DNA of 43,177 nt from Candidatus Cloacimonadota bacterium (GTDB lineage: Bacteria > Cloacimonadota > Cloacimonadia > JGIOTU-2): positions 1-43,177 of the forward strand of contig JAUWMT010000019.1 of NCBI GenBank assembly GCA_030613025.1. Direction: 5' to 3'. The first letter of the stretch is position 1. The number at the start of each line of letters is the position of its first letter. The notes under the pieces are model-generated. The model made no database searches. It saw nothing but the letters and a program-made list of their open reading frames with translations, and was not told the origin of the DNA. The position numbers were made by a program, and so were the translations under genes. Shown in pieces: positions 19,421 through 36,002 of the stretch.

Positions 19421-19523
19421 CTCAACCTCTGAATGTTCGCTATCTGCGGACTTCCGAGTGTTGAGGATTTATTTTATACAAACATTCGGATGTTCGCTCG
19501 CCAGCGAACAATCAGAAGTTTGT
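19421..19523. repeat. REP-like hairpin pair on the res side of the RAYT
   Basis: Hairpins at 19421-19465 (arms CTCAAC/GTTGAG) and 19478-19523 (ACAAACATTC...GTTCGCT / AGCGAAC...GTTTGT) repeat the pair at 18786-18869 in direct orientation. The res stop codon (19512-19514) lies inside the second hairpin. Confidence 0.8.
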
Positions 19524-22226
19524 TTTTGAATCATTTTTAGTTTCATAATCCCGTAAACCAAATAATTCAGCTACATCCTCAAAATTTTTAATGTCTTTTT
19601 TATATTTATCCCAATCTACCTGTTTAATGTACAGCGGGATATAGGTTATTTTCGTTTTCTTAGAATTATTAACGTCGCCGCACCATATTTTCAGTCTATT
19701 GATCTTTCGTATATCATCCAGGTCTTCCCTTCCTTTAGTCTCTATTATGTAAATTGTTTTCATGTCTTTTTTTACAATAAAATCAGGATAATAATTCCTA
19801 ATATTCCCATCTTCTGCCTGGTACTCGATTTGGTAACGAACACTCAAAATGTTCTTTGCAAACGAGATGATATCATCGCAATTATCAAGAAAACGTGCGA
19901 ACTCGAGCTCAAAGTCATTATCTCCAATAATAATATTGAATATTGACTTCTGCGGATAGAAATGGTTTTTATAATCATATACAGTTGGCTTCACTTCTCG
20001 CAATTTAATATGTCTTCTAATTTCTGCAGTTCCTGCATCTGAGATTGTAAGTCTTGAAATAGCTTCTTTGAATGTATTGAAAATTATTGTTTTTGGTGAA
20101 GCTTCCGAGAGGTTTCGTAGTATATTTCTATCTTCAAGGACAACTTCCTTTTCGAATAATCTGTATTTAATGAAATCTCTTACTTTGGGATATAATACTT
20201 CAAATCCGCTGAACAAACGACTTTCTTTCAAAATCGAATTCGTGAAAAAAGCTACAACATTTCTATAATCGATCTCTGATCCTTTAAAATCGATCTTGTG
20301 AGAGAATTCACCTTCAATATCTGTAAATATTATTTCTCTTATCTGATCTTTTCGGAATTGCTTTATCCTTACTCTATTATTCTTAAATTTATTAATATCA
20401 ATAAGTTCCAATTTTTTATATTCTCTATAAATTCTTGGCGTCAGTACAGGTACCAAAATATCCAATTTATCAAGATCCTTTTTTGTATTTTCTTTATCCG
20501 GTTCTATTATCAATGTTCTTTTTGGTTTGTAATTTAATCCCATTGGTCTGTAAAAAAGTTCAACACCATCCTTCTTAATTGATTTTACAAAATCCATAAA
20601 TGAGTCAGTACCAATTACAGCAAGTTCTTCTTCCGGGAGTTCCGGGAACATGCGCCTTAATCCTCGCCCAATAGTTTGTTCGGGTAGGATATTGCTGTTG
20701 TCTGAATATGGACGTAATCCAACAACCGTTGTGACATTTTTCACATCCCATCCTTCTCTAAGCATAAGTACCGATACGATTGCTTTGTAAGGACTTTTAT
20801 CTAAATCTACTTCATCTGCTGCTTTTCTTAATTTTTCTAACTCGGCAGTAGGTTTCTTTTCATTTATTTCACCTTTTTTATTTGTGTGAATAACAAGAAC
20901 AGATTTCTTGTTCTGGAATTCAGGATAATGATTGTGTAAATATTCAGCGATTTCATCGCTTTCTCTTGTTGTGGTTGTCATTATGAACAATAAGGGTGTT
21001 TTCACTTTTTTGAAATTATCATATTGTTTTTTCCATTCCACATACCCAAGGTCAATATAATCTTTATATCTTTCTACAAATTCATCTGTTTCCTTCTCTC
21101 TCAGTTTTGCTCGGGAAGCTTCATCCGGGAGCACAAGTTTTTTCACTACATTTTGCTTAATTGCTTCAACAAGCGGATAATCACAAATTGTTTGAACAAA
21201 AATACCCCCACCTCTATGTTTTGGTGTTGCTGTAAAATCAACCTGTAAGGCAATGGGATTTTTCTGTTTCAGTTTTAGTGTATTATTTATGTCTTCAATA
21301 TTTTTAAACCACGCAAGACTTTTATCATGTATGTGATGAGCTTCATCGTTTATTATAAGTAGGTCTTTTATCTTATCACTTCTTAATATTTTTCCAAGAT
21401 CGGTTCCTTTATCTTTATCTGCATTAGGGCTTGGCTTTCTGCCGGCAAAGTAATCAAGCACATTATCATCTTCATAAGTTGGCTCTTTATATGACGAAAG
21501 AAATATTCTATGAACATTTGTAACAAATAGATTTCCTGCCGGTGAGATTGCTTTTACTTCATCTTGTACATGCACTGTTAACTGAAAATCGGTATTCCAG
21601 TTTTTTTCGTGCCAGCCATCTTCTGGTATTACCGGATCATCTTTAAAAATATTCTTATTCTTAAAATCTTTTAATAATCTGTTTAATACAATTATGTTTG
21701 GTGCAATTAGCAAAATATTTTTGGATAGATTAGAATTTTCTTCGTACAACTTATTAAAATATGACCATGCGATCACTAAACTTGCTACTTTAGTTTTACC
21801 TGAACCTGTAGCCATTTTTACAACATACCTTGTCCAATCCTCATCAAACATACCTCCTGAAACTTCTCCGGAGGAATCAAATCTCATTAGTTCAAATTTA
21901 TCATGTGCTTCAACGATTTCATAAAGATATATTATTGACTCAATAGCTTCTCTTTGTGCAAAATAATATTGGAATTCTATTTCTTCATCATCTTCCATTT
22001 TTTTATGTTCAGTCTGGAACCAATATTCCAATAATTGTTTTGAAGTTTCAGTCGCACCTTCGTAATTATTTAATCTCCATTCGTACACCTTGTGCCTGAT
22101 TTTATGCACAAAAGGTGGCAGCAAATTAATGAAACCTGCCTGTTGCAGTTCCTGACGTGTAGGCACCCATCTAGTATCAGGATGCATTATTGAGAATGGA
22201 TCAAAATTTTTTTCTTGTTTTGGCAT
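19512..22226 (-). CDS. res: Type III-like restriction endonuclease, helicase-nuclease subunit (Res)
   Basis: The 904-residue SF2 translocase/nuclease has Walker A (MATGSGKTKVASLV, about 138-151), DEAH box (LIINDEAHHIHD, about 290), motif VI (EQTIGRGLRRMFPE, about 518) and a C-terminal PD-(D/E)xK nuclease (YYPDFIVKKDMKTIYIIETKG, about 810-830). It should cut unmethylated DNA together with Mod. Its last few residues and stop come from the REP hairpin at 19478-19523, so the original C-terminus may have been altered by the insertion. Res is upstream of mod here, the reverse of the usual mod-res order. Confidence 0.9.
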   Translation of the reverse strand: MPKQEKNFDPFSIMHPDTRWVPTRQELQQAGFINLLPPFVHKIRHKVYEWRLNNYEGATETSKQLLEYWFQTEHKKMEDDEEIEFQYYFAQREAIESIIYLYEIVEAHDKFELMRFDSSGEVSGGMFDEDWTRYVVKMATGSGKTKVASLVIAWSYFNKLYEENSNLSKNILLIAPNIIVLNRLLKDFKNKNIFKDDPVIPEDGWHEKNWNTDFQLTVHVQDEVKAISPAGNLFVTNVHRIFLSSYKEPTYEDDNVLDYFAGRKPSPNADKDKGTDLGKILRSDKIKDLLIINDEAHHIHDKSLAWFKNIEDINNTLKLKQKNPIALQVDFTATPKHRGGGIFVQTICDYPLVEAIKQNVVKKLVLPDEASRAKLREKETDEFVERYKDYIDLGYVEWKKQYDNFKKVKTPLLFIMTTTTRESDEIAEYLHNHYPEFQNKKSVLVIHTNKKGEINEKKPTAELEKLRKAADEVDLDKSPYKAIVSVLMLREGWDVKNVTTVVGLRPYSDNSNILPEQTIGRGLRRMFPELPEEELAVIGTDSFMDFVKSIKKDGVELFYRPMGLNYKPKRTLIIEPDKENTKKDLDKLDILVPVLTPRIYREYKKLELIDINKFKNNRVRIKQFRKDQIREIIFTDIEGEFSHKIDFKGSEIDYRNVVAFFTNSILKESRLFSGFEVLYPKVRDFIKYRLFEKEVVLEDRNILRNLSEASPKTIIFNTFKEAISRLTISDAGTAEIRRHIKLREVKPTVYDYKNHFYPQKSIFNIIIGDNDFELEFARFLDNCDDIISFAKNILSVRYQIEYQAEDGNIRNYYPDFIVKKDMKTIYIIETKGREDLDDIRKINRLKIWCGDVNNSKKTKITYIPLYIKQVDWDKYKKDIKNFEDVAELFGLRDYETKNDSKTNF

Positions 22227-22372
22227 ATTTATACCTTATTCAATAATTTATTACTTTTCTTTCAATATCTTTTCCTTCTTCAGCCACATAATTACAAGAT
22301 CATTTTTTTGGGTTACTCTTTAATTTTATTTTCTGCATTCACTGTCAATTTATAATTTATGCTCATTACAAC

Positions 22373-23443
22373 TTAACCACTTTCTTCGTTAAATAGATAT
22401 ATCGTTCCTCGTCCTTTTCCAATTTTCTCAATTAAATTTTCAGCAACTAAATATTGAAGATCCTTTTTTATTGTATTAATTGAACAGTTCTCCAATTTTT
22501 GGGCTATATCACTCACTTTTACCGGTTGATCTTCTTTAATTATTTGTAGAATACCACTTTGCCGTGCATTTAAGTAACTTTTCTTTTCACTATATTTTTG
22601 GTATTTCGTTTCTAATTTAGTTATTAAAATCTCAATAGATGTCAGAAAGAAAAGAGTCCACTCATATATTTTTTCATGTTCCGTATATCTATTTTTTTGT
22701 CCGTTCATTATGGCTTGGTAGTATTCTTTTTTCTTTTCTTCAATAATATGTTCCAATGAAATATATTGAACAAATTCGTATCCGGATTTCATCAATAAGA
22801 GAGTTGTTAATAATCTAGATAATCTGCCATTTCCGTCCTGGAAAGGATGAATAGATAAAAATTCGTACACAAATGTAGCAATAATTAATAATGGGTGAAG
22901 ACTTTTATTGTCGAATTGTTTATTAGTCCATACGATCAATTCTGACATTTCTTTATCAACTAAAAGGGGTTCAGTAGTATTAAAAATTATTTTTTCAGTT
23001 CCATTCGGATACTTTGCAATTACTTTATTTGATATTTTTTTATATTCTCCGAGATGCCTTTGATCCTTTTTGCTTTCTTTTAATAAAATTCCATGCAATT
23101 GTTGAATATAGTTTTCTGTTAATGTAATTGAATCGTAATTTTCAAGAATTAAATCAAGGGTTTTATAATAACCAACTACTTCTTGCTCATCCCTGCTTAC
23201 AAATTTATTTATTTTTACATTTTTGAGCAGTTTTTCTATTTCCACATCGGTTAATTTAGCCCCTTCAATTCTTGTTGAGGAACCAATACTTTCTATCGTG
23301 GCAATTCGTTTTAATTCTTTAAGATACTTATTTTCTCTTTTTTCAAGAGCTTGCCATTTTCCTTTAAATAGATCAATTGTACTAATTCTATTTATTAGAT
23401 TCTGTGTTTCTGAGAAAGAAAATTTCATTTTATTTGAAAACAT
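22373..23443 (-). CDS. Fic/DOC family protein (AMP-transferase type) with inhibitory motif and winged helix
   Basis: The 356-residue protein has the intact Fic motif HPFQDGNGRLSR (about 199-210), which transfers AMP from ATP to target hydroxyls. The N-terminal inhibitory helix motif S-x-x-x-E-G (STRIEG, about 56-61) is present, so it is a class II, self-inhibited Fic. The C-terminus (about 290-356) is a winged helix-turn-helix (VKVSDIAQKLENCSINTIKKDL), suggesting DNA binding. ATG 23443 is chosen over the extended frame because AAAGGA lies 7 bases before it. It lies beside the restriction locus, and divergent from the two-component system. Confidence 0.9.
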   Translation of the reverse strand: MFSNKMKFSFSETQNLINRISTIDLFKGKWQALEKRENKYLKELKRIATIESIGSSTRIEGAKLTDVEIEKLLKNVKINKFVSRDEQEVVGYYKTLDLILENYDSITLTENYIQQLHGILLKESKKDQRHLGEYKKISNKVIAKYPNGTEKIIFNTTEPLLVDKEMSELIVWTNKQFDNKSLHPLLIIATFVYEFLSIHPFQDGNGRLSRLLTTLLLMKSGYEFVQYISLEHIIEEKKKEYYQAIMNGQKNRYTEHEKIYEWTLFFLTSIEILITKLETKYQKYSEKKSYLNARQSGILQIIKEDQPVKVSDIAQKLENCSINTIKKDLQYLVAENLIEKIGKGRGTIYLFNEESG

Positions 23444-23733
23444 ATTATATCCTTTATTTATCTGCAAAATATTCGTAACCAACAAAACATGTCAACAGAT
23501 ATATTTATTTTGTATCCGTAAAATATCTTTAAATTGTGATCATTTAAATTACGTTTTCACTGACCGTAAGGCGGATAACTTCAGACAAAATGCGGGACTA
23601 TTAGGAATTATATAGATATAAACTGAGATAAATAAAATTTTTTCAACAATCGATATTTACGAAAACCTCAATTTAATTGACAAACAAATCATCTTGCGAA
23701 ATTGCTCATTCAGTTCAAATCAAGGAAAATGAA
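23444..23733. promoter_or_regulatory. Divergent promoter region between fic and the sensor kinase
   Basis: These 290 bases should hold both promoters. A TTGACA occurs at 23677-23682 but no good -10 is placed after it. No sigma-54 consensus was found here. No repeat family of the window is present. Confidence 0.4.
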
Positions 23734-25257
23734 ATGATCGCTCGAATACAAAGTATATTAAAAAAAATGATCAAGCTTTCCAAACAAAAGACTGAGCATT
23801 TGGAATTCGTCCGCGCTGTTCATGAGCTTTTTGCTGAAGAATTGGATATTCGGGAATCAATCTTCATTCTGGCTATCGACAGCTACTTTTTAAAAAGTTC
23901 ATACAGTACTGAACCGGAAGAATATTGGGATATTCGCACTAATGAACTGCGGGATGAAGACCGGTTTTCCCGATTGGTAGATATCGTTCTTAAAGAAATA
24001 AATTTTGACCCGGATTCTGACATTAGGATCGAGATATATAATTGCGATGTTACAATTGGATACATCATTGCCCGAAATGTTGATGCCAGCAGTGATGTGA
24101 TTGAAATATTCGAAGAGATCAAAGACTTCTTCTTCCTGATCTGCATGTCGATCTATCGCCAGTTTCAATTGAATGAACGAGTGAAAGAATTGAGCTGTTT
24201 GCACAGTATCAGCAAAATTGCCGAGAATACCGATCTCAGTATTTCAGAATTTCTTACTGAGATTGTTAACCTGCTCCCACCCGCTTTGCAATTTTCCGCA
24301 CAAGCTAGTGCTCGCATCGTCTACAATGACCAATCATTCCAGACTGATAAATTCTCAGAAGGTGAGCGCTCACTAAATGCTCCTATAGTATTAGGCAAAA
24401 CTAAAACTGGTTTTGTAGAAGTGAGTTATCCGAAGGATTTGACATTGCCGAACAGCTATCCATTCTTGAAAGAAGAAGAGCATCTTATTAGCATCATTGC
24501 GCAGGAATTGAGCATTACACTGGAAAAGAAAAAGGCTGAAAAAGAAAGCCAGCACTTGGAGAAACAACTTCGCCATGCCGACAGATTGGCGACGTTGGGA
24601 CAGCTCTCTGCTGGCATAGCCCACGAGATCAATGAGCCTCTTGCCGGAATCCTGGGGTTGGCTCAATTGATGGAGAAAAATGAAAGCCTCGATGAGCAAG
24701 CTCTATCTGATTTGGAAAATATTGTATCAGCATCTCTACATGCGCGTGAAGTTGTAAAAAAACTTATGCTTTTTGCCCGCCAGATGCCATCTTCTCAAAC
24801 CAACCTAAATTTGAATGAAGCAGTTAATAATGCCGTCTTTTTTTTAGAATCACGCTGTCGCAAGAATTTAGTGAAGATCACACTCGCTCTGAAAAAAGGT
24901 ATTCCCTGTATTAAAGCAGATTCTTCCCAGATTCACCAAGTACTCATTAACCTGATCGTGAATGCTCTGCAAGCTATGCCCGATGGCGGTATCATTAGCA
25001 TTAAAACTTATTTCGATACTGAACTTGTTTTTCTGGAATGCAGGGATACTGGCATTGGCATGAGCAAAAGTGTACTTAGCCAGATATTCAATCCTTTTTT
25101 CACGACCAAAAAAGTGAATGAAGGAACCGGTCTTGGATTATCAGTGGTGCATGGGATTATATACTCACACGGTGGTGAAATAAAAGTGACCAGTCAGCCG
25201 GGCAAGGGGACAAAATTCTTGATAACATTTCCTCACGCATTAAAGGAAGGTTCATAA
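23734..25257 (+). CDS. NtrB-like sensor histidine kinase with GAF-like input domain
   Basis: The 507-residue kinase has no membrane segments and is probably cytoplasmic. Residues about 1-145 are an unrecognised input region. A GAF-like domain follows (about 147-266; NERVKELSCLHSI...LLPPALQF...PFLKEEEHLISIIAQEL), then a coiled coil, then the H-box SAGIAHEINEPLAGILG (His297). The ATPase domain has NLIVNALQAM, DTGIGM and GTGLGLSVVHGI. The H-box is of the NtrB/AtoS type. ATG 23734 has AAGGA 7 bases upstream; a TTG at 23677 is rejected. Its stop overlaps the regulator start by one base. The GAF-like domain is shared with the protein at 29976. Confidence 0.92.
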   Translation: MIARIQSILKKMIKLSKQKTEHLEFVRAVHELFAEELDIRESIFILAIDSYFLKSSYSTEPEEYWDIRTNELRDEDRFSRLVDIVLKEINFDPDSDIRIEIYNCDVTIGYIIARNVDASSDVIEIFEEIKDFFFLICMSIYRQFQLNERVKELSCLHSISKIAENTDLSISEFLTEIVNLLPPALQFSAQASARIVYNDQSFQTDKFSEGERSLNAPIVLGKTKTGFVEVSYPKDLTLPNSYPFLKEEEHLISIIAQELSITLEKKKAEKESQHLEKQLRHADRLATLGQLSAGIAHEINEPLAGILGLAQLMEKNESLDEQALSDLENIVSASLHAREVVKKLMLFARQMPSSQTNLNLNEAVNNAVFFLESRCRKNLVKITLALKKGIPCIKADSSQIHQVLINLIVNALQAMPDGGIISIKTYFDTELVFLECRDTGIGMSKSVLSQIFNPFFTTKKVNEGTGLGLSVVHGIIYSHGGEIKVTSQPGKGTKFLITFPHALKEGS

Positions 25258-26591
25258 TGAAAAATAAAAGAATTCTTGTTTTGGATGATTATGATCTCAC
25301 CCGGGATGTGATAAAGCGCAATCTAGCTGCGAATGGTTACCAGCTTTATACAGCCGGAAATTTTGAGCTGGCGAAAGAGATACTTAAGGAAATCGATCTC
25401 GATCTGGTGATTACCGATCTTAAAATGCCTGATATCAGTGGATTGGATGTAATAACTTATATTACTGAAAATTTCAAAGATGTGGAAATAATTGTTATCA
25501 CCGGTTATCCCACTATTACTTCTGCAGTGGATGCCGTCAAACTTGGTGCTGATGATTACTTAACAAAACCATTTACGGATGTGGAACTTTTAGCAGCAGT
25601 GAAGAAAACCCTGGAAAAACAGGAAAATAAGCGGGAATTTAACAGGGAAATTTCAGATGGATTCGGTGAAAAATTCGGGATTATAGGTAATTCTGAAAAA
25701 ATGCTGGAAGTGTTCAAAACTATTAAAAAAGCTTCCGAGATAAACAGCACAGTATTGATAACCGGCGAGAGCGGAACGGGAAAAGAATTAGTAGCCCGAG
25801 CGATTCATTATACTGGCTTCAGAGCAGCAGCACCTTTTGTTCCCATAAATTGTGGCGCTATACCCGAAACACTTTTAGAAAGCGAACTATTTGGTTATGT
25901 TAAAGGAGCTTTTACCGGTGCTCATACCACACGTAACGGTTTTTTCATAAGTGCAAACAAAGGCACGATTTTTCTGGATGAAATATCTGAAACTTCCATG
26001 ATGCTTCAGATCAAACTTCTACGCGTGATTCAGGAAAAAGAAGTTTACAGGGTCGGTTCAGCCGAAGTTCAGAAAGTGGATGTTCGAATTCTCGTGGCTT
26101 CCAATAAAGATCTGCATGGATTGGTAGAACTGGGTAAATTCAGGGAAGACCTTTTCTATCGTTTGAATGTTCTCACTGTCAATATCCCTCCTTTGCGGGA
26201 ACGAGGTACAGATATTTTCCAGCTTGCCAATTATTTTGCCAATAAATATGCAAGTGAATTCGATAAAAAAATTCTTTCCTTCAACGATGAAGTGCTGGAT
26301 ATTTTGGGAAAATATAACTGGCCCGGTAATGTGCGTGAATTGGAAAACCTGGTTCATCGTTTGGTGATAATGAATGAAGATGGAAATATCCGCAAAGCTG
26401 ATCTGCCTGTCTTTATGAAATCCCGGATCAACAGCGTGAGCGATGTGAAAAGAACCCTGCAAGAAGTCGAGATCGAGCACATCAAAAACGTGCTGGAATA
26501 TACAAACAATAATAAATCAAAAGCATCTGAAATTTTACGAATCGATCGTAAAACGTTAAATAATAAACTCAATCAAGATCGTAACGAGTAA
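25257..26591 (+). CDS. NtrC-family sigma-54-dependent response regulator
   Basis: The 444-residue activator has a receiver domain (acceptor Asp54 in VITDLKMPD, Thr82, Lys104), an AAA+ domain with Walker A GESGTGKE (170-177), the sigma-54 contact loop GAFTGA (217-222) and Walker B TIFLDEI, and a Fis-type helix-turn-helix at the C-terminus (SKASEILRIDRKTLNNKL). It is coupled to the kinase by a one-base overlap (TAATG) with an AAGG site. The intact GAFTGA implies true sigma-54 activation. The most obvious target is the sigma-54 promoter 231 bases downstream, before the dehydrogenase operon. Confidence 0.95.
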   Translation: MKNKRILVLDDYDLTRDVIKRNLAANGYQLYTAGNFELAKEILKEIDLDLVITDLKMPDISGLDVITYITENFKDVEIIVITGYPTITSAVDAVKLGADDYLTKPFTDVELLAAVKKTLEKQENKREFNREISDGFGEKFGIIGNSEKMLEVFKTIKKASEINSTVLITGESGTGKELVARAIHYTGFRAAAPFVPINCGAIPETLLESELFGYVKGAFTGAHTTRNGFFISANKGTIFLDEISETSMMLQIKLLRVIQEKEVYRVGSAEVQKVDVRILVASNKDLHGLVELGKFREDLFYRLNVLTVNIPPLRERGTDIFQLANYFANKYASEFDKKILSFNDEVLDILGKYNWPGNVRELENLVHRLVIMNEDGNIRKADLPVFMKSRINSVSDVKRTLQEVEIEHIKNVLEYTNNNKSKASEILRIDRKTLNNKLNQDRNE

Positions 26592-26675
26592 TATAAAATT
26601 TAGACATAGATGTAAACGCATTTCATACTCTGATTTTCGAAAGAATACTTGAAAACACTGTGGAATTTCAGATAT

Positions 26676-26700
26676 GTGGGGAAAATTTACCCACTTTTTT
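26676..26700 (+). terminator. Terminator after the response regulator
   Basis: GTGGG (76-80) and CCCAC (90-94) arms with a 9-base A/T loop, followed by six T. It should separate the two-component transcript from the operon driven by the sigma-54 promoter. Confidence 0.65.
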
Positions 26701-26736
26701 AATCTACAATAATTACAATTCTAAACACAAAGTTGC

Positions 26737-26799
26737 ATTTCTGAAATTTTATTTCTATCTATAAGTAGTATTCTCAAGCATTTACCATTTTTCAGAAAA
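26737..26799 (+). promoter_or_regulatory. Candidate activator sites upstream of the sigma-54 promoter
   Basis: Two palindromes of the form TTTC-N-GAAA: ATTTC-T-GAAAT (26737-26747) and TTTTC-A-GAAAA (26789-26799). They fall about 105 and 55 bases before the predicted start, and the first is at a typical enhancer distance. TTTCAG also occurs at 26667 and 26805. These are in very A/T-rich sequence, so chance is a real alternative. Confidence 0.3.
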
Positions 26800-26821
26800 T
26801 TATTTTTCAGATTTTCAATAT

Positions 26822-26838
26822 TTGGCACACAAATTGCA
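26822..26838 (+). promoter_or_regulatory. Sigma-54 promoter (-24/-12) of the glutamate dehydrogenase operon
   Basis: TTGGCAC-N5-TTGCA with GG at 26824-26825 and GC at 26836-26837, exactly the 10-base spacing required. Transcription would start near 26848, giving a leader of about 32 bases with AGGAG at 26871-26875. The gene just upstream encodes a sigma-54 activator. Confidence 0.85.
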
Positions 26839-26880
26839 AATAAACAAAACAAAAGCAGTAAATATGACAAAGGAGAAAAG

Positions 26881-28164
26881 ATGGATAAGTCTTTCAATGC
26901 ATTTAAAATGGCACAAGATCAGTTTGATGCTGTTGCTGACAAATTAAACCTGAATGAAGCATCAAGAGAACTCTTGAGAACTCCAATGCGGGAATATCAT
27001 TTTACTATTCCTGTCAAAATGGACGATGGAACCTCCAAAGTTTTTCGTGGATTTCGCATTCAGCATAATGATGCCATAGGACCATGCAAAGGTGGAATTC
27101 GATTCCATCCGCAGGAAACTGTTGATACAGTTCGTGCACTTTCCATGTGGATGACATGGAAAACAGCGGTTGTGGATATTCCGCTGGGTGGCAGTAAAGG
27201 TGGAGTGATCTGCGATCCGCATAATCTTTCAGCCAGAGAACAAGAACAGATCTGCCGCGGCTGGATTCGCCAACTTCACAGAAATGTAGGTCCGCTGCGC
27301 GATATTCCCGCTCCTGACGTGATGACCAATGGACAGCACATGCTGTGGATGCTTGACGAATATGAAACGATCACTGGCGAAAAATATCCGGGAATGATCA
27401 CAGGGAAACCTGTTGGAATGGGTGGTTCACTTGGTAGAACTGAAGCTACCGGTTATGGAGTTATTTTTACTGTTCGTGAAGCTCTGAAAGAAATGAACCT
27501 CACTATCGAGAACACAACAGCTTCATTCCAGGGATTCGGTAATGTTTCACAATATGCAATCAAGCTATATGACCAACTTGGCGGGAAATCACTCTGTGTT
27601 TCTTGTTGGGATCAGCAGGATCAAACATCCTACTCTTTCCATAAAAAAGCGGGTATCGATATCGATGAACTGTTAAGTATCACCGATCACTTTGGTGGAA
27701 TCGACAAAGCAAAAGCGAAAGAACTTGGTTATGACGTACTCACAGGTGATAAATGGATCGAAGTGGAATGCGACATCTTAGTTCCTGCAGCTTTGGAAAA
27801 TCAAATCACTGCTGCAAATGTTAATAAGATAAGTTCGAAAGTAAAACTAATTGCAGAAGGAGCCAATGGACCCACTACACCGGAAGCCGACGAAGTGCTA
27901 AAAGAGCGCGGCATTTTCATTATTCCGGATTTCCTGTGCAATGCCGGCGGAGTTACCTGCAGCTACTTTGAGCAGGTTCAATGCAATATGAATTATTTCT
28001 GGAGCAAAGACGAAGTTCTTGGAAAACTCGATTACAAAATGACTACTGCGTATCATAAGGTTTCCAAACTCGCAAGAGAAAAGAGACTATATATGCGTGA
28101 CGCAGCTTATATGATCTCTGTCGACAGAGTTATACGAGCCTCTGTTGCCAGGGGTTGGATATAG
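26881..28164 (+). CDS. gdhA: Glutamate dehydrogenase (Glu/Leu/Phe/Val dehydrogenase family)
   Basis: The 427-residue enzyme interconverts glutamate with 2-oxoglutarate and ammonia using NAD(P). The dimerisation/substrate domain shows FRGFRIQHNDAIGPCKGGIRFHP (Lys70) and WKTAVVDIPLGGSKGG with the active-site lysines, then RDIPAPDVMTNG. The nucleotide-binding domain has FQGFGNVSQYAIKL. End motif GGVTCSYFEQVQ is normal. The length fits hexameric bacterial enzymes. Substrate preference for Glu over other amino acids is likely but not certain. AGGAG precedes the ATG by 5 bases. It is the first gene after the sigma-54 promoter. Confidence 0.93.
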   Translation: MDKSFNAFKMAQDQFDAVADKLNLNEASRELLRTPMREYHFTIPVKMDDGTSKVFRGFRIQHNDAIGPCKGGIRFHPQETVDTVRALSMWMTWKTAVVDIPLGGSKGGVICDPHNLSAREQEQICRGWIRQLHRNVGPLRDIPAPDVMTNGQHMLWMLDEYETITGEKYPGMITGKPVGMGGSLGRTEATGYGVIFTVREALKEMNLTIENTTASFQGFGNVSQYAIKLYDQLGGKSLCVSCWDQQDQTSYSFHKKAGIDIDELLSITDHFGGIDKAKAKELGYDVLTGDKWIEVECDILVPAALENQITAANVNKISSKVKLIAEGANGPTTPEADEVLKERGIFIIPDFLCNAGGVTCSYFEQVQCNMNYFWSKDEVLGKLDYKMTTAYHKVSKLAREKRLYMRDAAYMISVDRVIRASVARGWI

Positions 28165-28184
28165 AGAAATATCCTCCTCAACCT

Positions 28185-28210
28185 AAAGGGCAGATTCACG
28201 TCTGCCCTTT
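28185..28210 (+). terminator. Strong hairpin between gdhA and the ATP-grasp gene, without T-run
   Basis: Perfect 10-bp stem AAAGGGCAGA/TCTGCCCTTT with a 6-base loop. No T-run follows (ATATAATAAC). It may be a weak terminator or an RNA-stability element that sets gdhA expression above that of the following genes. Confidence 0.6.
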
Positions 28211-28233
28211 ATATAATAACAAAAGGAACTGCT

Positions 28234-29979
28234 ATGAAAAGCGGACAAAAATTCGAGCGGGAAACCGGGTTCTTTCATGATGGTTTTACCTATATAGGAA
28301 CTGGTTTGCCAGGTGGTAAAGCATCGGGATTGGCTTTATCTCATAATATTTTGAAGAAACATTTTCCAGAAGGTGATATTGAAGGAATGCAGGTAAACAT
28401 ACCCCACACAACCGTTTTACTTAGTGGAGTGTTCGATACATTTATGAAAGAAAATAATCTGTATAAAATTTCTCTTTCAGATGCTTCTGATGATGAAATT
28501 GCCATCAGCTTCATAAATGCGTCCTTTGGCGGCTTATATTCCGGTGATCTGTTTTATCTGATTGAAAATGTTGATAAACCATTGGCAGTACGTTCCTCAA
28601 GCATTTGCGAAGATTCTTTGAACGAACCATTTGCCGGATTTTATGAAACCAAAATGGTGGCAAATAATCAGTTAAACAGTGCAGACAAATACAATGCGTT
28701 GATCAATGCCATCAAATATGTGTATGCTTCACTTTTCTTTCAACAGTCCAAGAAATATTTCCGAACCATTAATCGTGATATTTGCCAGGAAAAGATGGCT
28801 GTTATTATTCAAGAAGTTGTGGGTGATCGTTATGGAGAGAACTTTTTTCCGTATATTTCCGGTGTGCTGAAATCCTATAATTTCTATCCTTCCGAACAGA
28901 TCGAACCGGATGCTGGTTTTGCTGCTTTGGCTTTTGGTTTGGGTAAAACGATCGTTGACGGCTCAACTTGCTGGAGCTACTGTCCGCGTTATCCTCGCAC
29001 TCCTCAGCCCTTCAATAACATGAAAGATATGCTGAACAATACCCAGAAAGAATATTGGGCTGTGAATCTGGGGAAGATCAATAATTACAATCCTGTGGCT
29101 GAAACCGAATACCTGGCACATAATTCCATTTTCGATATCCGGGACAGAAGTCTGCTCAAACATATCTGTTCCACTTATGATCACATCAATGATCGTCTTA
29201 TAATGGGAGTGCAGAATTATGGGGCTCCGGTTCTGGATTTTGCTCCTACTTTACGGGCTGAAACTTTACCTTTGAATACTGTGATAAACCAGATAATAAA
29301 GGTATGTGAAGATGAAACAAACAGCAAAGTAGAAATAGAATTTGCTGTATCTTTGGGCACAACAAAAGATCCTCAACCACGATTTGGCTTCTTACAATTA
29401 CGACCTATTAACATATCAAATGAGATTATCGATTTGCCGGAAATCACTGATAGTTCAGACGAGGTTTTGCTTTCTTCAAAAAAAGTGATGGGTAACGGTA
29501 TATCTAACGACATCTGTGATATTGTTTACATTCGTCCAGAAAATTTCAATACTCAATACACCAATCAGATAGCTGCTGACATCGCCGAATTTAATGCCAT
29601 TTTCACTGCCAATAAACGTAAATATATGTTGATAGGATTTGGACGCTGGGGGACTTCCGATCCGTGGTGTGGAATTCCGGTGCAATGGCCACAGATTTCC
29701 AACGCCAAAATAATCGTTGAAACCGTTCTGCCCAGCATGAGAGCAGATTTCAGCCAGGGCGCACACTTCTTTCACAACATGACTGCTCACAATGTATTCT
29801 ATTTTTCTGTGGATAAGGAAGATGCAAAAAATCTTGACTGGAATTGGATTCAGCAGCAGAAAACAATAAACGAAACGAAATTCGTGAAGCACGTTAAATT
29901 GAAACAAAGTCTGAAAGTGTTGGTCGATGGCAGGCACAGCAATGGTGTGATCATGAAGAATGAAGATAATAAACAATGA
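28234..29979 (+). CDS. Stand-alone PEP-synthase-type ATP-grasp protein (PPDK_N-like), no phosphohistidine domain
   Basis: The 581-residue product matches the nucleotide-binding half of PEP synthase/PPDK: LPGGKASGLALS (Lys29), KPLAVRSSSICEDS (Arg120), MAVIIQEVVGDRYGENFFPY and EIEFAVSL...FLQLRPI (to about 391). The swivelling His domain (GGxTxHA motif) and the PEP/pyruvate barrel are missing. In their place is a module of about 150 residues (YMLIGFGRWGTSDPW...SQGAHFFHNM, about 460-525) also found in the protein at 29976. So it is not a complete PEP synthase. It may phosphorylate another partner or bind nucleotide for regulation; this is inference. AAGGAA precedes the ATG. It overlaps the next gene by 4 bases. 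Confidence 0.85.
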   Translation: MKSGQKFERETGFFHDGFTYIGTGLPGGKASGLALSHNILKKHFPEGDIEGMQVNIPHTTVLLSGVFDTFMKENNLYKISLSDASDDEIAISFINASFGGLYSGDLFYLIENVDKPLAVRSSSICEDSLNEPFAGFYETKMVANNQLNSADKYNALINAIKYVYASLFFQQSKKYFRTINRDICQEKMAVIIQEVVGDRYGENFFPYISGVLKSYNFYPSEQIEPDAGFAALAFGLGKTIVDGSTCWSYCPRYPRTPQPFNNMKDMLNNTQKEYWAVNLGKINNYNPVAETEYLAHNSIFDIRDRSLLKHICSTYDHINDRLIMGVQNYGAPVLDFAPTLRAETLPLNTVINQIIKVCEDETNSKVEIEFAVSLGTTKDPQPRFGFLQLRPINISNEIIDLPEITDSSDEVLLSSKKVMGNGISNDICDIVYIRPENFNTQYTNQIAADIAEFNAIFTANKRKYMLIGFGRWGTSDPWCGIPVQWPQISNAKIIVETVLPSMRADFSQGAHFFHNMTAHNVFYFSVDKEDAKNLDWNWIQQQKTINETKFVKHVKLKQSLKVLVDGRHSNGVIMKNEDNKQ

Positions 29980-32900
29980 ACACAATCGAAGAAAATTCAA
30001 AAAGATTAATTGAAAGCCTGAAAGAAAGACAAAAAGAGCTTGATTGTATTCATGGGCTGGAAAGTATTTTAACTGATTTCGATCAACCTCTGGAAAAAAT
30101 ATTTCAGAGGATTTTGGATATTCTGCCCAACGGCTGGCAATTTCCCAATATATGCTTTGCCGAAATCGAATACTATGATAAGATTTACAAAAATTCCAAA
30201 TCACCCGACACAGAATATGTACAAAAATCTCCCCTGCACAAAAACAATATTCATTTCGGGGAAATCAGGATCTATTATACCGACGTTCCGCCTGAGCTTC
30301 ATCATAACCCTTTTCTCAAGGAAGAATACTCTCTTTTAAACACTGTTGCAAGCATCCTGGCTTCCTATCTCGCAGTGCGTTCATACAGGGAAAACACACC
30401 CATCTCAGCACATCGGGGTGAATGGAAAGTTATCATCAATATGTTGCAAAAAACGGATATAAAGCTTTTTTTGCGCATAGCTAGGAAACTGTTGAATCTG
30501 CTTTATCAAAAAGGAATCAAAGAAGTAAAATCGATCTATGCATCCTTTGGTGCCACTACCCGGGATTCCCAAATAGATTTGAGTTCTGAGGTCAATGTTC
30601 CGCTCAAAAAAAGGGATTACAAGGAAACTATTAAATTAAGCGATCAGATATTCGAAATTGCTGATCAACATTTTTCCGATGAAGAATTAATGGATTACAT
30701 CCGCAAATGGATGCAGGAATATAAATTGAATTTCCTAATTATTTCTCTGGAAAGTAAGGATACAACACTGTCTGAACTGCAGGACGCAATTTTCCATTAT
30801 CACAGCCAAGAAATCGATAAAGAAAGCCTCTCTCCTTATGCTTATATGAATGTGAAAGTGCTACTCATTCAGAAGTTATTCACCAATCAACTGGAATTCA
30901 TCAATGTTGTTAAAAACTATATAGAAATTGATGATTTTTATGAAGTATTGCAGCATACTATTTTTCCCAGTAATTCACATGGTAAGCTGGGAGGGAAAAG
31001 CACCGGGCTTTTTTTTGCAAATAATATTATTAAAAGCGAAATAGACGAGGATTTCAGCAAAAACATCAAAATACCCCAGACATGGTATATTACTTCAGAT
31101 GCGATGCTTAACTTCCTGCATTATAATAATTTGGAAGAAATCATTGAACAGAAATACAAAGATATTGAGAGCGTGCGAGCGGAATATGGCAATATCATCC
31201 AGATGTTTAAAAATTCACATTTCCCACAGGATATATCCAAAGGATTATCTCAATTCTTGGATATATTAGGTGACAAGCCGATCATTGTGCGCAGTTCTTC
31301 TCTTTTGGAAGACAGCTACGGTGCTGTTTTTTCCGGAAAATATAAAAGCTTGTTCCTGGCTAACCAGGGAAATAAAGAGGAGTGCTTGAATGCTTTGCAG
31401 GATGCTATTGCTGAAGTGTACGCTTCCATTGTCGGACCTGATCCGATCGAATACCGTAAGGAACGCGGTCTTCTGGATTTTAAAGAAGAAATGGCGATCA
31501 TGATCCAGGAAGTGGTCGGAACAAAATGCGGCAAATACTTTTTCCCAGCTTTTGCGGGAGTTGCTTTTTCCAATAACGAATTCCGGTGGTCGTCAAGCGT
31601 AAAGAGAGATGACGGACTGGTACGAATGGTGCCAGGTATGGGAACGCGTGCCGTGGATAGGTTGAGCAATGATTATCCTGTCCTGGTATCTCCCGGAAAA
31701 CCAGGTACCAGGGTAAATGCCACTACCGAAGAAATTTTGAAATACAGCCCCAAGAATATCGATCTGATCAACCTGGAAACAAATTCTTTCGAAACGATGC
31801 CAATCAGAGAAGTTATAAAGGAATGCAAAGAGCAATTTCCACTTTACCAACAATTGTTTTCGGTTTACGAAGATAAATATATCGTCGAAAAATCCGGATT
31901 CAATATCGATTTTGAAAACGATGACCTGATCGTCACATTCAATGGTTTGATCAACAATTCTTCTTTTTTGAAAAGGATAAAAAAGATTTTAGAGATACTG
32001 AAATCAAAATTGGATACTCCAGTCGATATCGAATTCGCTGTGAAAGATGATGACTTTTACCTTTTGCAGTGCCGTCCGCAGAGTTTTTCCAGTGTCGATG
32101 AGCCACAACCAATTCCACAGGATATTCCCAGTAAAGACGTTTTGTTCACAGCACACAAATATATTTCCAATGGTTACATTCCGGAGATTTCTTATATGGT
32201 TTATGTAGATCCGGAAAAATACAGTGATTTGCAGACTATCGATGAACTGCACAAAGTAGGACTTTGCATCGGAAGGTTGAATATGTTACTTCCCAAAAAG
32301 AAATTTATCCTGCTTGGACCGGGTCGTTGGGGTAGTAAAGGTGATATTAAATTGGGTGTGAACGTAACATATTCGGACATTAATAAAACTGCTGTTCTCA
32401 TCGAGATAGCAAAGGAAAAGGGAAATTATGTTCCCGATCTTTCGTTTGGGACACATTTTTTCCAGGATTTAGTGGAAGCACAGATCCGTTATATTCCACT
32501 CTATCCGGATGAAAAAGATAACATATTCAATACAAGTTTCTTTCGATTTTCTAAAAATATCCTGCCAGACATCCTTCCTGATTTTGTCGATCTGATCGAT
32601 TGTGTAAAAGTGATAGATATTCCCGCTGAAACTGATGGCAGAATACTGAAAATATTTATGAATGCCGATCTGGATGAAGCAATTGGATATGTTGGTGTAC
32701 CGGGTATAAGCAGAGACTACATCTTAAGTCAGCCCGAAAGTTATGACACAGGTGTCGAAAATTATTGGTATTGGCGCATGCAAGTATGCGAGTTTCTGGC
32801 ACAAAATATCGAAGCGGAAAATCTGGGCGTGGAAGCTCTTTATGTTTTTGGTAGTGTGAAAAATGCTAATGCGGGTCCAGCCAGCGATATCGACCTGCTG

Positions 32901-33125
32901 GTTCACTTTCGGGGAGATGAGATACAAAGAAAAGAACTTGTTGCCTGGTTGGATGGTTGGAGTATTTGCCTGGATTATTCCAACTACCTTAAGACCGGTT
33001 ATAAGACCGGAGGACTGTTGGATGTGCATATCATCACGGATGAAGATATCGAGAATAAAACCAGTTACGCCATTAAGATCAACGCTGTTACCGATGCAGC
33101 CAGAAAACTGGATATGAGGAAATGA
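29976..33125 (+). CDS. GAF-like / PPDK_N ATP-grasp / nucleotidyltransferase fusion protein
   Basis: The 1049-residue protein appears cytoplasmic. Domains: GAF-like (about 16-135; KERQKELDCIHGL...ILPNGWQF...PFLKEEYSLLNTVASIL), which resembles the input domain of the kinase at 23734; an unrecognised region (150-330); PPDK_N ATP-grasp (336-705; KLGGKSTGLFFAN, KPIIVRSSSLLEDSYGAVFSGKY, DIEFAVKDDDFYLLQCRP); the shared module (775-840; FILLGPGRWGSKGD...SFGTHFFQDL); and a C-terminal Pol-beta-type nucleotidyltransferase (950-1025; YVFGSVKNANAGPASDIDLLV with Asp971/Asp973, third Asp in GLLDVHII). No His-swivel or PEP barrel is present. Inference: a nucleotide-dependent regulator, perhaps modifying a protein as GlnD/GlnE do. 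Both ends overlap neighbours by 4 bases. Confidence 0.85.
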   Translation: MNTIEENSKRLIESLKERQKELDCIHGLESILTDFDQPLEKIFQRILDILPNGWQFPNICFAEIEYYDKIYKNSKSPDTEYVQKSPLHKNNIHFGEIRIYYTDVPPELHHNPFLKEEYSLLNTVASILASYLAVRSYRENTPISAHRGEWKVIINMLQKTDIKLFLRIARKLLNLLYQKGIKEVKSIYASFGATTRDSQIDLSSEVNVPLKKRDYKETIKLSDQIFEIADQHFSDEELMDYIRKWMQEYKLNFLIISLESKDTTLSELQDAIFHYHSQEIDKESLSPYAYMNVKVLLIQKLFTNQLEFINVVKNYIEIDDFYEVLQHTIFPSNSHGKLGGKSTGLFFANNIIKSEIDEDFSKNIKIPQTWYITSDAMLNFLHYNNLEEIIEQKYKDIESVRAEYGNIIQMFKNSHFPQDISKGLSQFLDILGDKPIIVRSSSLLEDSYGAVFSGKYKSLFLANQGNKEECLNALQDAIAEVYASIVGPDPIEYRKERGLLDFKEEMAIMIQEVVGTKCGKYFFPAFAGVAFSNNEFRWSSSVKRDDGLVRMVPGMGTRAVDRLSNDYPVLVSPGKPGTRVNATTEEILKYSPKNIDLINLETNSFETMPIREVIKECKEQFPLYQQLFSVYEDKYIVEKSGFNIDFENDDLIVTFNGLINNSSFLKRIKKILEILKSKLDTPVDIEFAVKDDDFYLLQCRPQSFSSVDEPQPIPQDIPSKDVLFTAHKYISNGYIPEISYMVYVDPEKYSDLQTIDELHKVGLCIGRLNMLLPKKKFILLGPGRWGSKGDIKLGVNVTYSDINKTAVLIEIAKEKGNYVPDLSFGTHFFQDLVEAQIRYIPLYPDEKDNIFNTSFFRFSKNILPDILPDFVDLIDCVKVIDIPAETDGRILKIFMNADLDEAIGYVGVPGISRDYILSQPESYDTGVENYWYWRMQVCEFLAQNIEAENLGVEALYVFGSVKNANAGPASDIDLLVHFRGDEIQRKELVAWLDGWSICLDYSNYLKTGYKTGGLLDVHIITDEDIENKTSYAIKINAVTDAARKLDMRK

Positions 33126-33985
33126 TTCCGGCTCTCTTCACCAGCGATTTGCATGGCTCAAAAAAGAAGTATGAATTTCTCTTTGATAAAATTCTAACCA
33201 TCAAACCTGCTGTTGTTTTCCTTGGGGGAGACATGATGGGCTTTGCCGTAAAATTACAAAGCGTTGCAATTCCTACCGGTGAAGACTTTTTGTACGATTA
33301 CCTGGCAATGAATCTACAATTAATCAGAGATGAATTGAAAAATGAATATCCGGTAATTTTTGTGATACTGGGAAATGATGACCCCAAAAGACATGAAGCT
33401 GCTTTGCTGGATATTTCAACCACTAATCTTCTCACATATGTTAATGAACAAAAAGCCAACTTCCAAGCTTATAACGTAATCGGCTATTCCTATGTACCTC
33501 CAACTCCTTTTTTAAATAAGGATTGGGAAAAATATGATGTTTCTCGCTTTGTGGATGTGGGTTGTGTTTCTCCAGAAGCAGGTTATCGCAGTATTCCTGT
33601 TTCAGTTGACGAACTTCGTTTTTTTACAATTAAGCGTGATTTGGAAAAACTTTTTGCTGATGTAGATCTCTCCAGAACGATTTGTCTTTTTCATTCTCCT
33701 CCCTACAAAACCAAGCTTGATCGAGCTGCCCTGGATGGTGTGCTGGTCGATCATGCGCTACTGGATGTGCATGTGGGCAGTATAGCCATCAAAGAATTCA
33801 TCCTTACAAGATCCCCGTATCTCACTTTGCATGGTCATATTCATGAATCATCCCGTATTACAGGCAATTGGAAGGAAAAAATCGGAGATACGATCTGCTT
33901 TCAGGGAGCAACGGAGCGAGATGAGAACGGTATCATCCTTTTTGATTTGGATGATCCGAATACAGCAGAGATGCTCAAAGAATGA
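33122..33985 (+). CDS. Calcineurin-like metallophosphoesterase
   Basis: The 287-residue product has the metal motifs in order: SDLHG (Asp9, His11), GGDMMG (Asp37), GNDD (85-87, where most members have GNHD or GNHE), FHSPP (His191) and HGHIHE (238-241). It could be a phosphodiesterase or phosphatase; the substrate is unknown. It is the last gene of the gdhA operon and overlaps the fusion gene by 4 bases (ATGA). Given the neighbouring nucleotidyltransferase, removal of a nucleotide modification is possible but is inference. It converges on rsmE with a 28-base gap and no clear terminator. Confidence 0.88.
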   Translation: MIPALFTSDLHGSKKKYEFLFDKILTIKPAVVFLGGDMMGFAVKLQSVAIPTGEDFLYDYLAMNLQLIRDELKNEYPVIFVILGNDDPKRHEAALLDISTTNLLTYVNEQKANFQAYNVIGYSYVPPTPFLNKDWEKYDVSRFVDVGCVSPEAGYRSIPVSVDELRFFTIKRDLEKLFADVDLSRTICLFHSPPYKTKLDRAALDGVLVDHALLDVHVGSIAIKEFILTRSPYLTLHGHIHESSRITGNWKEKIGDTICFQGATERDENGIILFDLDDPNTAEMLKE

Positions 33986-34013: not shown

Positions 34014-34745
34014 TTAATAAAATTTAGGATTTTTCCCCAACTGATAAAAAATCGTATTTGCAGCAATTGTGATCGCGGCAGTTTCTGCTCTCAGAATATG
34101 ATTTCCCAGCGAAACGATCTGTGCTGAGTGTTCTCTTGCAAAATCTACTTCTTGCTTTACAAAGCCACCTTCGGGTCCAATTATTAGACAAATATCTTTA
34201 TCAGCATGTTCAAGTACCTCATGAAGTCCGTGCCGGTCTTCTTCTTCCCAAGCAAGAACAGGATAGTAATTTTGGGATAAATTTTTAAGTAATTCCCCGA
34301 AAGCAAGCGGCTTATGAATTTGAGGTAAATGAGTTGAATCACATTGTTTGAGCGCAGCGATTGCGACTTTTTCAAGTCTTCCAAACTGGTGAGTAGAAAG
34401 AGATGTTTTTACATTCCTTTCTGCAAAAAATGGGAAAAATTCATAAATACCGAGCTCGGTACATTTTTCGATAATCAGTTCATTATGCTGTTTCAATAGG
34501 GAAAATGCCAGTGCAATATGTGGATGGGATTTCTCTTTTTTGTCGATCCTTTCAATTTGCAGGATTATTTCTCGGGGTGAAAGTTCTTTTATAATGCATT
34601 CTGCCAGTAGCCCGTTTCCGTTTGTTATGAGAAGAGTATCCCCAACTCTTTTTCTTAGTGTATTTTTTATATGTTTGAATTCTGTATCTGATATTGTGAT
34701 TTCTTTTGTTGTTGCAGTTAGATCCGGTATGTAGAAAATTGGCAT
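34014..34745 (-). CDS. rsmE: 16S rRNA (uracil1498-N3)-methyltransferase
   Basis: The 243-residue SPOUT-class enzyme methylates U1498 of 16S rRNA using SAM. It has an N-terminal PUA-like part (HIKNTLRKRVGDTLLITNGNG) and the C-terminal knot with the family motif LIIGPEGGFVKQEVDFA and LGNHILRAETAAI. It begins 15 bases after dnaJ, so it is the last gene of the heat-shock operon, an arrangement known from other bacteria. Confidence 0.95.
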   Translation of the reverse strand: MPIFYIPDLTATTKEITISDTEFKHIKNTLRKRVGDTLLITNGNGLLAECIIKELSPREIILQIERIDKKEKSHPHIALAFSLLKQHNELIIEKCTELGIYEFFPFFAERNVKTSLSTHQFGRLEKVAIAALKQCDSTHLPQIHKPLAFGELLKNLSQNYYPVLAWEEEDRHGLHEVLEHADKDICLIIGPEGGFVKQEVDFAREHSAQIVSLGNHILRAETAAITIAANTIFYQLGKNPKFY

Positions 34746-34760
34746 TTACATCAAATTGAA

Positions 34761-35924
34761 TTAGACAAAATAGTCTTTGATCTTATCAAAAAATGATCTG
34801 CCGGGTTTGAGATTTCTCTTTTCGTCAAAAGGAGCGATCTTGGTGTACAATTCCTTCTCTTCGCTGGAAAGTTTATTGGGGATGACCACAATAATTTTCA
34901 CATAAAGATCACCTTTTCTGTTGCTGTTCAGATGGGGTAAACCCTGACTGCGCAATCTGAAAACCTTTCCGGATTGTGTGCCGGAAGGTATCTTCATCTT
35001 GGCATGACCTTTCAGTGTGGGCACTTCTGCGGTGTTACCAAGTACTGCGTCAGTTATGGTGATAGGGAAAGTGCAGATAAGGTCCTGTCCATCTCTGTCA
35101 AAGAGGTCGTTTCTCTTTTCCCTGATATAAACTAGTATATCACCTGGAGGACCGCCCTGTTTGCCTGCGTGACCCTGTCCGCGGAGATTAAGATATTGTC
35201 CGTCAGAAACCCCTGCAGGGATCTCGACTTTTATAGTTTTAACTGAGGAAATTCTGCCTTCTCCATTACATTTAGAGCATTTATTCTGGATGCTCTGACC
35301 TGTTCCGTTACACACAGGACAGGTTGTGATGGTTGACATCGCTCCGAATGGGGATTGACGCACCTGTTTGACTCTTCCTGAACCACCGCATTGGCGGCAG
35401 GTTGCAACTTTTCCATCTGCCGATCCGGTTCCGTTACATGCATCACATTTTTGCTTTATATTTACTTTCAGCCGTTTGGTAACTCCCTTAGCAATTTCTT
35501 CCAAACTAAGAGAAAGCGATATCTTCAAATCTCCACCACGATTTACCATGCGTTGGCGTGGTTGTCCCCCAAAACCAAATCCTCCTCCACCTCCTCCAAA
35601 GAAGGTTTCAAAAATACTGCCAATATCTCCAAAGATGTCTGAAAAATCATTTGCATGAGTGAAATTATCCCAGGTAAATCCACCGCTTCCAAAAGCACCT
35701 TCAAGTCCTGCATGTCCGAATTGGTCATACTTTTTACGCTTATCGTTATCGCTCAAAACTTCGTATGCCTCAGATGCTTCTTTGAATTTTTCATCAGCTG
35801 CTTTATCATCTTTGTTCTTGTCAGGATGATATTTCAATGCCAGTTTTCTGTAAGAGCTTTTTATCTCGCTTTGGGAAGCGCTTTTATCCACACCGAGTAT
35901 TTCGTAGTAATCTCTCTTTGCCAT
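34761..35924 (-). CDS. dnaJ: Chaperone DnaJ (type I Hsp40)
   Basis: The 387-residue co-chaperone stimulates the DnaK ATPase. It has a J domain with HPD ([16 protein letters not shown], about 32-47), a Gly/Phe-rich linker ([14 protein letters not shown]), four zinc CxxCxGxG repeats ([32 protein letters not shown], about 160-220) and a C-terminal substrate-binding region ([22 protein letters not shown]). It is complete. The ribosome site is weak. Confidence 0.97.
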
Positions 35925-35953
35925 TTTCTATTTCTAACCTTCTTTATTGATAC

Positions 35954-35985
35954 GCACGGGAACTGCGAATGTGCAATTCCCGCGC
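35954..35985 (-). promoter_or_regulatory. Hairpin in the dnaK-dnaJ gap
   Basis: 13-bp arms (GCACGGGAACTGC / GCAATTCCCGCGC) with two G-T type pairs and a 6-base loop, in the 78-base gap before dnaJ. No T-run. It may protect dnaK mRNA or lower dnaJ read-through. Confidence 0.55.
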
Positions 35986-36002
35986 ATGAATTATTAAATG
36001 TT

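Follow-up and report, generated by a model that had tools for sequence, protein, structure and literature searches.

The window analyzed here, a 43,177-nucleotide stretch comprising positions 1 to 43,177 of contig JAUWMT010000019.1 from a Candidatus Cloacimonadota bacterium (assembly GCA_030613025.1), contains six plus-strand genes in a row that may form a control module for glutamate dehydrogenase (GDH). The genes encode a histidine kinase (HK), a σ54-type response regulator (RR), GDH itself (gdhA), two proteins, denoted A and B, that contain the ATP-grasp domain PPDK_N, and a metallophosphoesterase (MPE). The initial annotation of this DNA had proposed such a run; the open reading frames were found where it had placed them, and the families were confirmed by Pfam and NCBIfam. 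The HK and RR frames share a single base (TAATG) and the overlaps of A/B and B/MPE are of four bases each (ATGA), so that the 4-base overlaps previously ascribed to the last three genes apply to these two junctions only. A gap of 69 bases, holding a strong hairpin not noted in the initial annotation, separates gdhA from A. The cluster is real and conserved and, as far as these tools show, undescribed as a system.

Two-component pair, promoter and hairpin

HK (23734..25257, plus strand) is 507 aa long from its ATG, with a frame open from 23677, and matched the HisKA and HATPase models of Pfam. It comprises an N-terminal region, a GAF-like sensor (aa ~141–265), a HisKA domain with the histidine at ~297, and a HATPase_c domain, and is soluble, since it has no hydrophobic stretch (maximum KD19 of 1.44). 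The sensor is homologous to the N-terminus of B (match at 24169–24525, E = 1.7e-9, 30% identity); no Pfam family matched it in either HK or B. The same sensor also occurs in large proteins of 853–1180 aa in the window's class (L214, L215, L217; loci are given as L numbers throughout). RR (25257..26591, plus strand) has the Pfam receiver, σ54 AAA+ and Fis-type helix-turn-helix domains of an NtrC-type enhancer-binding response regulator, including the receiver aspartate (ITDLKMP) and the GESGTGKE and GAFTGA motifs. The label “NtrB/NtrC-like” given to this pair therefore holds for its architecture but not for its family, as the scores were far below the model cut-offs: 98 versus 240 for HK in the NCBIfam NtrB model, and 398 versus 558.6 bits for RR in the NtrC (NR(I)) equivalog TIGR01818. 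RR also scored 417 against the cut-off of 714 for NCBIfam AtoC.

A σ54 promoter had been predicted ahead of gdhA, and this prediction was upheld. The element TGGCACACAAATTGCA (TGGCAC-ACAAA-TTGCA; 26823..26838, plus strand) matches the −24/−12 consensus with GG-N10-GC spacing and is conserved in the orthologues, which keep it at about −56 to −69. Only three perfect σ54 sites were found in the 2.83-Mb genome, compared to none for the reversed control pattern, and a σ54 score of at least 10 was reached in 0.3% of shuffled upstream regions. An rpoN gene was found in the genome, and a conserved dyad, TGGGGAAAATTTACCCA (26677..26693, strandless), lies ≈145 bp upstream of the promoter. The dyad, a probable enhancer for RR, has a core that was invariant in an alignment of eight members of the class. 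Perfect copies of its consensus, TGNGGAANNNTTCCNCA, numbered eight in the 2.56 Mb of sequence fetched, seven of them upstream of a gdhA gene of the window's type (GDH1); three relaxed matches were found in the window's whole genome, the window copy among them. A half-site, TGTGGAATTTCAGAT (26659..26673, plus strand), precedes the main dyad by 18 bp, and this spacing of the TGnGnAA motif to the dyad is maintained in the window and six other genomes, while it is 19 bp in the eighth. Dyad and half-site together have the anatomy expected of a site for an enhancer-binding protein, as which we predict them to function. A transcriptional arm of GDH control, made up of HK, RR and σ54, thus appears well supported at the level of sequence comparison.

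The eighth perfect dyad lies just downstream of an HK/RR pair in a cluster of the sister family R (see below), at L039:17297–17313, between the RR gene of that cluster and an open reading frame of 127 aa. The latter had no match in a Pfam search and is a possible further member of the regulon.

The hairpin between gdhA and A (28184..28211, plus strand) has a 12-bp stem and a minimum free energy of −19.0 (z = −3.9), compared to −9.4 ± 2.5 for shuffled sequences. The terminator scan of the window did not flag it, the window copy having no T-run; it was revealed by comparison. Most class members in which the gap could be read have a strong hairpin at the equivalent place, with differing sequences and, in several cases, a T-run following. 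It is probably an attenuator or processing hairpin. Conservation of the hairpin after gdhA leads us to predict partial termination, with lower expression of A, B and MPE than of GDH. Joined gdhA–A transcripts should then exist at lower abundance. The single operon originally drawn from the gdhA promoter is modified to this extent: A, B and MPE probably form its tail, expressed at a lower level.

Proteins A and B and the phosphoesterase

Protein A (581 aa; 28234..29979, plus strand) consists of a PPDK_N ATP-grasp domain (aa 27–397, Pfam) and a C-terminal domain, which in the alignment of orthologues has invariant GRWGxxxD (aa ~470–476) and SxGxHFF (aa 507–513) motifs. Protein B (1049 aa; 29976..33125, plus strand) matched PPDK_N and NTP_transf_2 in Pfam, confirming that a nucleotidyltransferase is fused to one of the ATP-grasp proteins. 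Its layout is a GAF-like sensor (aa 1–140), a helical middle region (aa 141–330), PPDK_N (aa 337–716), a C domain like that of A (GPGRWGS at 781, GTHFF at 825), and a minimal nucleotidyltransferase that keeps the residues FGS at 958, D971/D973 and D1016. The GRWGxxxD and SxGxHFF C domain is nearly invariant in A, B and R, and is unnamed in Pfam. The ATP-grasp residues (the GGK lysine, the RSS arginine and the acidic pair before QxR) are conserved in all three proteins and constitute invariant columns in the A and B alignments, as in a nucleotide-binding ATP-grasp of the PPDK type.

AlphaFold2 models were obtained for A (predicted local distance difference test, pLDDT, 83.7; predicted template modeling score, pTM, 0.83) and for B (pLDDT 77.2). 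The Foldseek matches of both models to rifampin phosphotransferase (RPH), PPDK and HpeI were confined to the ATP-grasp part; for B, this match was strong, while those to MNT and the NifA GAF domain were weak. A and B thus share with phosphoenolpyruvate (PEP) synthase and PPDK the N-terminal ATP-grasp nucleotide domain with its conserved catalytic residues. However, PPDK_N is the only such domain in A, and it is joined by the nucleotidyltransferase in B; both proteins are without the phosphohistidine swivel (PF00391) and the PEP/pyruvate TIM barrel (PF02896), their C-terminal domain differs, and the scores in the equivalog models fell far below cut-off. The description “truncated PEP synthase” is apt in this sense. 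RPH and HpeI, to which the ATP-grasp part is structurally closest, carry PPDK_N acting on non-pyruvate acceptors, but A and B have neither a drug- or phenol-binding domain nor a His domain, and are adjoined by GDH.

The nucleotidyltransferase of B matched only NTP_transf_2/Polbeta (aa ~933–986), and no GlnD or GlnE model matched B. It is weakly MNT-like, sharing with the MntA nucleotidyltransferases of type VII toxin–antitoxin systems a minimal fold with GS...DxD and a third Asp. A toxin–antitoxin or defense-type cassette that happens to lie beside gdhA would fit the weak NCBIfam MntA match of B and weak PADLOC matches to PDC-S09/S10. However, the MntA match (NF047752) reached 25.7 bits versus a cut-off of 60, these matches span only ~40–75 residues of generic folds, and there is no HEPN partner gene in the cluster. 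B is instead a multidomain protein of 1049 aa, with the nucleotidyltransferase fused to a sensor and an ATP-grasp, which is kept with gdhA across phyla. This conserved linkage largely excludes the cassette, which we consider extremely unlikely.

MPE (33122..33985, plus strand) is a calcineurin-like metallophosphoesterase (Pfam, 35 bits versus a cut-off of 21.5) in which the metal ligands are invariant in the alignment (D9-x-H11, GD37, GN85D, H191 and the GH237-x-H239 region). A sequence search of the PDB with the MPE profile gave no match. At L046:5785–7589 and L047:3032–4869, a stand-alone protein of 314–325 aa, comprising the sensor common to HK and B fused to a nucleotidyltransferase, overlaps an MPE homologue by four bases, in an operon without A, GDH or ATP-grasp. 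Nucleotidyltransferase and MPE therefore constitute a module of their own, which suggests that the two may act as writer and eraser.

Conservation of the linkage to GDH

GdhA (26881..28164, plus strand) is a family-II hexameric GDH by Pfam and NCBIfam, with the ELFV dimerisation and catalytic domains, a full-length match to hexameric GDH, and a match to PDB entry 1gtm (E = 4e-126). Its NAD(P)-binding domain has a 10-residue insert (SCWDQQDQTSYSF... region, aa ~241–292) that is present in 43 GDHs, which are linked GDH1s, and absent from 10 others that are unlinked or otherwise linked. In the window's class, all 28 genomes with a GDH1 of at least 72% identity carry A/B-type genes, and no such genes were found in the genomes G012, G014 and G017, which have only GDHs of 43–52% identity.

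The A and B orthologues were collected by their homology to A and not to GDH, so that the presence of GDH in their neighborhood is an independent test; the cross-phylum set was made up of the top 80 relatives from named genomes, which span many phyla. The order GDH1–A–B is the rule in the window's class. A directly follows GDH1 in Calditrichota (L096, L098), Planctomycetota (L097), Ignavibacteria (L099, L101, L103), Zixibacteria (L100), Bacteroidales/Bacteroidetes (L102, L104), Eisenbacteria (L108), Thermoanaerobaculales of the Acidobacteriota (L109) and a Spirochaetaceae metagenome-assembled genome (L118). In a Methanomassiliicoccales archaeon (L133), the A core, within a longer protein, directly follows GDH1. 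For 36 A genes, GDH1 lies upstream on the matching strand within 1.5 kb, and for one more it is on the opposite strand; the A-type loci that have no GDH all run into a contig end. We estimate that chance alone would place any one gene within 1 kb of a GDH in far fewer than 1% of genomes. Shared ancestry raises the counts inside a phylum, not the recurrence between phyla. The co-location across genomes that the initial annotation had named as its check was thus strongly positive, with A lying within 1 kb of a GDH wherever the neighbor was visible, in many phyla.

In 27 loci, A and B adjoin directly or overlap, with gaps of −35 to +31 bp. MPE adjoins B in 18 of the 33 loci where this could be seen, on the matching strand in 12 and on the opposite strand in six, and the latter argue for a functional rather than merely operonic link. 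Plasmid and phage searches with B gave no close homologue, the relatives being R genes (H1–H5) and PpsA-type synthases.

Proteins of the sister family R are ~990 aa long, with a receiver-like N-terminus, PPDK_N, and a C domain as in A and B. They too do not qualify as PEP synthase or PPDK, since PPDK_N stands beside receiver-type matches only. The first receiver, having no Asp, was rejected as a phospho-acceptor. The second keeps D256, S290 and K309, and R could therefore accept a phosphoryl group from a kinase. The partner of R is a different GDH (GDH2; 33% identical to GDH1), and 59 R–GDH2 pairs were found within 1.5 kb. They occur in the window's class, in Thermoleophilia (L123), Acidobacteria (L134, L142), a Heimdallarchaeota archaeon (L141), Planctomycetota (L173) and Bacteroidales (L160, L165, L174). 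R was present in 90 of 101 sampled genomes of a Prevotella-containing family and in all 76 species of a genus that we take to be Bacteroides. In Parabacteroides distasonis (H5), gdhA has as its neighbor a gene annotated “PEP/pyruvate-binding domain-containing protein”.

An HK/RR pair of the window's type adjoins R–GDH2 at L039, L040, L084 and L091. At L203, such a pair adjoins two other GDH paralogues with no ATP-grasp/PPDK gene nearby, which makes GDH the common denominator of this HK/RR type. L203 would also agree with a simpler explanation, in which a nitrogen-responsive two-component system merely co-expresses GDH with unrelated proteins, as would the hairpin that parts gdhA from A. However, the GdhA–A–B linkage holds in many phyla without HK/RR, and we consider this explanation very unlikely.

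Another explanation assigns A, B and MPE to metabolism, as enzymes of an ATP-dependent pathway that makes or consumes a derivative of glutamate or 2-oxoglutarate and is co-transcribed with gdhA because of a shared GDH substrate or product. PPDK_N homologues do include small-molecule ligases and phosphotransferases (PigC and RPH in NCBIfam, RPH and HpeI by Foldseek); the prodigiosin ligase PigC and rifampin phosphotransferase are precedents for such use of a PPDK-type ATP-grasp, and a role as substrate domain is conceivable for the unnamed C domain. Sensors and receivers are less readily explained in this way: B bears an HK-type sensor and a nucleotidyltransferase, and R bears receiver domains. 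Furthermore, the partners are two different types of GDH, and no additional enzyme of a pathway recurs consistently. We therefore consider a metabolic role unlikely.

Some neighboring genes were noted in addition. At a Zixibacteria locus (L117), consecutive genes encode A, MPE, a receiver-type protein, a divergent PPDK_N protein, RR and HK. A third type of PPDK_N protein (~760–830 aa) is encoded convergently beside GDH at L261 and L262, in the class of L109's genome. In the window, the cluster is flanked by minus-strand genes, which from their translations encode a DEAD-box/type III restriction-like helicase (904 aa) and a Fic-like protein (370 aa) upstream (19512–23485), and an RsmE-like protein, DnaJ and DnaK downstream (34014–37958), with more minus-strand open reading frames beyond.

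A proposed module for GDH control

We favor, with moderate confidence, the interpretation that the cluster is a dedicated GDH control module with a transcriptional arm (HK, RR and σ54) and a post-translational arm (A, B and MPE). Both arms had been suggested in the initial annotation; the transcriptional one gained support from the conserved dyad and the σ54 promoter, whereas the enzymatic one stands as a proposal that we consider plausible. That A and B act on GDH is suggested by the linkage, in which GDH is the only constant partner. In the proposed mechanism, the soluble HK would sense a signal via its GAF-like domain and phosphorylate RR, which would bind the TGGGGAAAATTTACCCA dyad and its half-site and drive the σ54 promoter of gdhA. 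Read-through past the hairpin would yield less A, B and MPE than GDH. A and the core of B would be PEP-synthase-type ATP-grasp enzymes minus the pyruvate/phosphohistidine half, directed to another acceptor through the GRWG...HFF domain, and B would sense the HK-type signal with a sensor copy of its own. The nucleotidyltransferase of B would probably nucleotidylate GDH, A or B itself, and MPE would take off the mark. GDH would then track one nitrogen/carbon signal in its amount as well as in its activity. Receiver domains would take the place of the sensor in the R version. What the sequences establish is the gene set, the intact motifs, and the conservation of the linkage, the promoter and the dyad; the signal, the binding by RR, the target, the chemistry and the direction of the effect in this scheme are what we infer.

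Several observations weigh against this interpretation. Outside the window's class, HK/RR was hardly ever seen beside the cluster, and MPE is absent near 15 of the 33 visible B genes, so that neither is obligatory. The GAF assignment of the sensor comes from a weak Foldseek match (NifA GAF, E = 0.08). R lies within 1 kb of GDH in only six of 20 high-quality Bacteroides loci, most of the others being 2.5–5 kb away, and several species have other genes directly downstream of the MNAAKVLD-type gdhA, before R. In the class of L109's genome, where the GDH–A/B linkage recurs, insert-bearing GDHs are unlinked at L257, L258 and L264, and no A or B was detected in the genomes of L250 and L252 despite an insert-bearing GDH. 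The GDH subfamily can therefore work without the module. The insert marks this subfamily rather than the module, and was rejected as an exclusive marker of A/B because of L250 and L252.

The same GDHs bear on the possibility that A, B and R act non-covalently, as ATP-driven activators, as assembly factors or as subunits within a GDH complex, with the nucleotidyltransferase regulating A/B. Such proteins might determine how GDH oligomerizes or use ATP to drive the thermodynamically unfavorable direction, and strict linkage to a GDH subfamily whose extra, structured insert lies close to the cofactor site would be consistent with this role. However, insert-bearing GDHs exist without A/B, and homologous hexameric GDHs in the PDB were solved without such a partner. 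Our assessment of this possibility is about as low as that of a metabolic role.

The proposed control of GDH by a dedicated module resembles the enterobacterial combination of NtrB/NtrC with GlnD/PII/GlnE, in that an NtrC-type regulator and σ54 act on the gene, nucleotidyltransferases act on the enzyme, and one signal reaches both. Unlike in the control of glutamine synthetase, the target here would be GDH; there is no HD domain, and no PII gene in the cluster. The modifiers would be PPDK-type ATP-grasp proteins, whose C domain is unnamed, and a minimal nucleotidyltransferase, with MPE as the candidate eraser.

Our literature searches found no paper on a link of A, B or R to GDH. The initial statement that no such system had been described is nearly right, but must be qualified by the title of a 1996 paper (Baggio and Morrison, J Bacteriol 178:7212, as cited in PMC4539542), according to which GDH activity in Bacteroides thetaiotaomicron is affected by trans-acting gene(s) downstream of gdhA. 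As far as this title goes, the likeness lies in a gene near gdhA that acts on GDH activity in trans, and the difference in that Bacteroides has R and GDH2, while the window has A/B and GDH1. The Bacteroides R gene is ~3 kb long, encodes PPDK_N and the C domain, is universal, and lies in the gdh neighborhood in most species. It may be the trans-acting gene, a lead that is weakened by the intervening genes. BT_1971, considered as a candidate for R, is a catalase. The downstream segment in the 1996 study was reportedly of ~3 kb and restored GDH activity in trans in Escherichia coli, which is how an activator or assembly factor would behave, and reversible inactivation of GDH has reportedly been described in B. 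fragilis.

GDH is a main ammonia-assimilating or glutamate-fermenting enzyme of anaerobes, Bacteroides included, and the older Bacteroides biochemistry hinted at an unexplained control of its activity. R, annotated only as a “PEP/pyruvate-binding domain-containing protein”, is a concrete candidate for this control, and the question is now testable. More tentatively, and as a possibility rather than a probability, A, B and R may be widespread, unrecognized enzyme-specific regulators that covalently phosphorylate and/or nucleotidylate GDH in many phyla, with MPE as the eraser. If so, they would constitute a GDH counterpart of the glutamine synthetase adenylylation cascade, built from unrelated parts and extending from gut Bacteroides to archaea.

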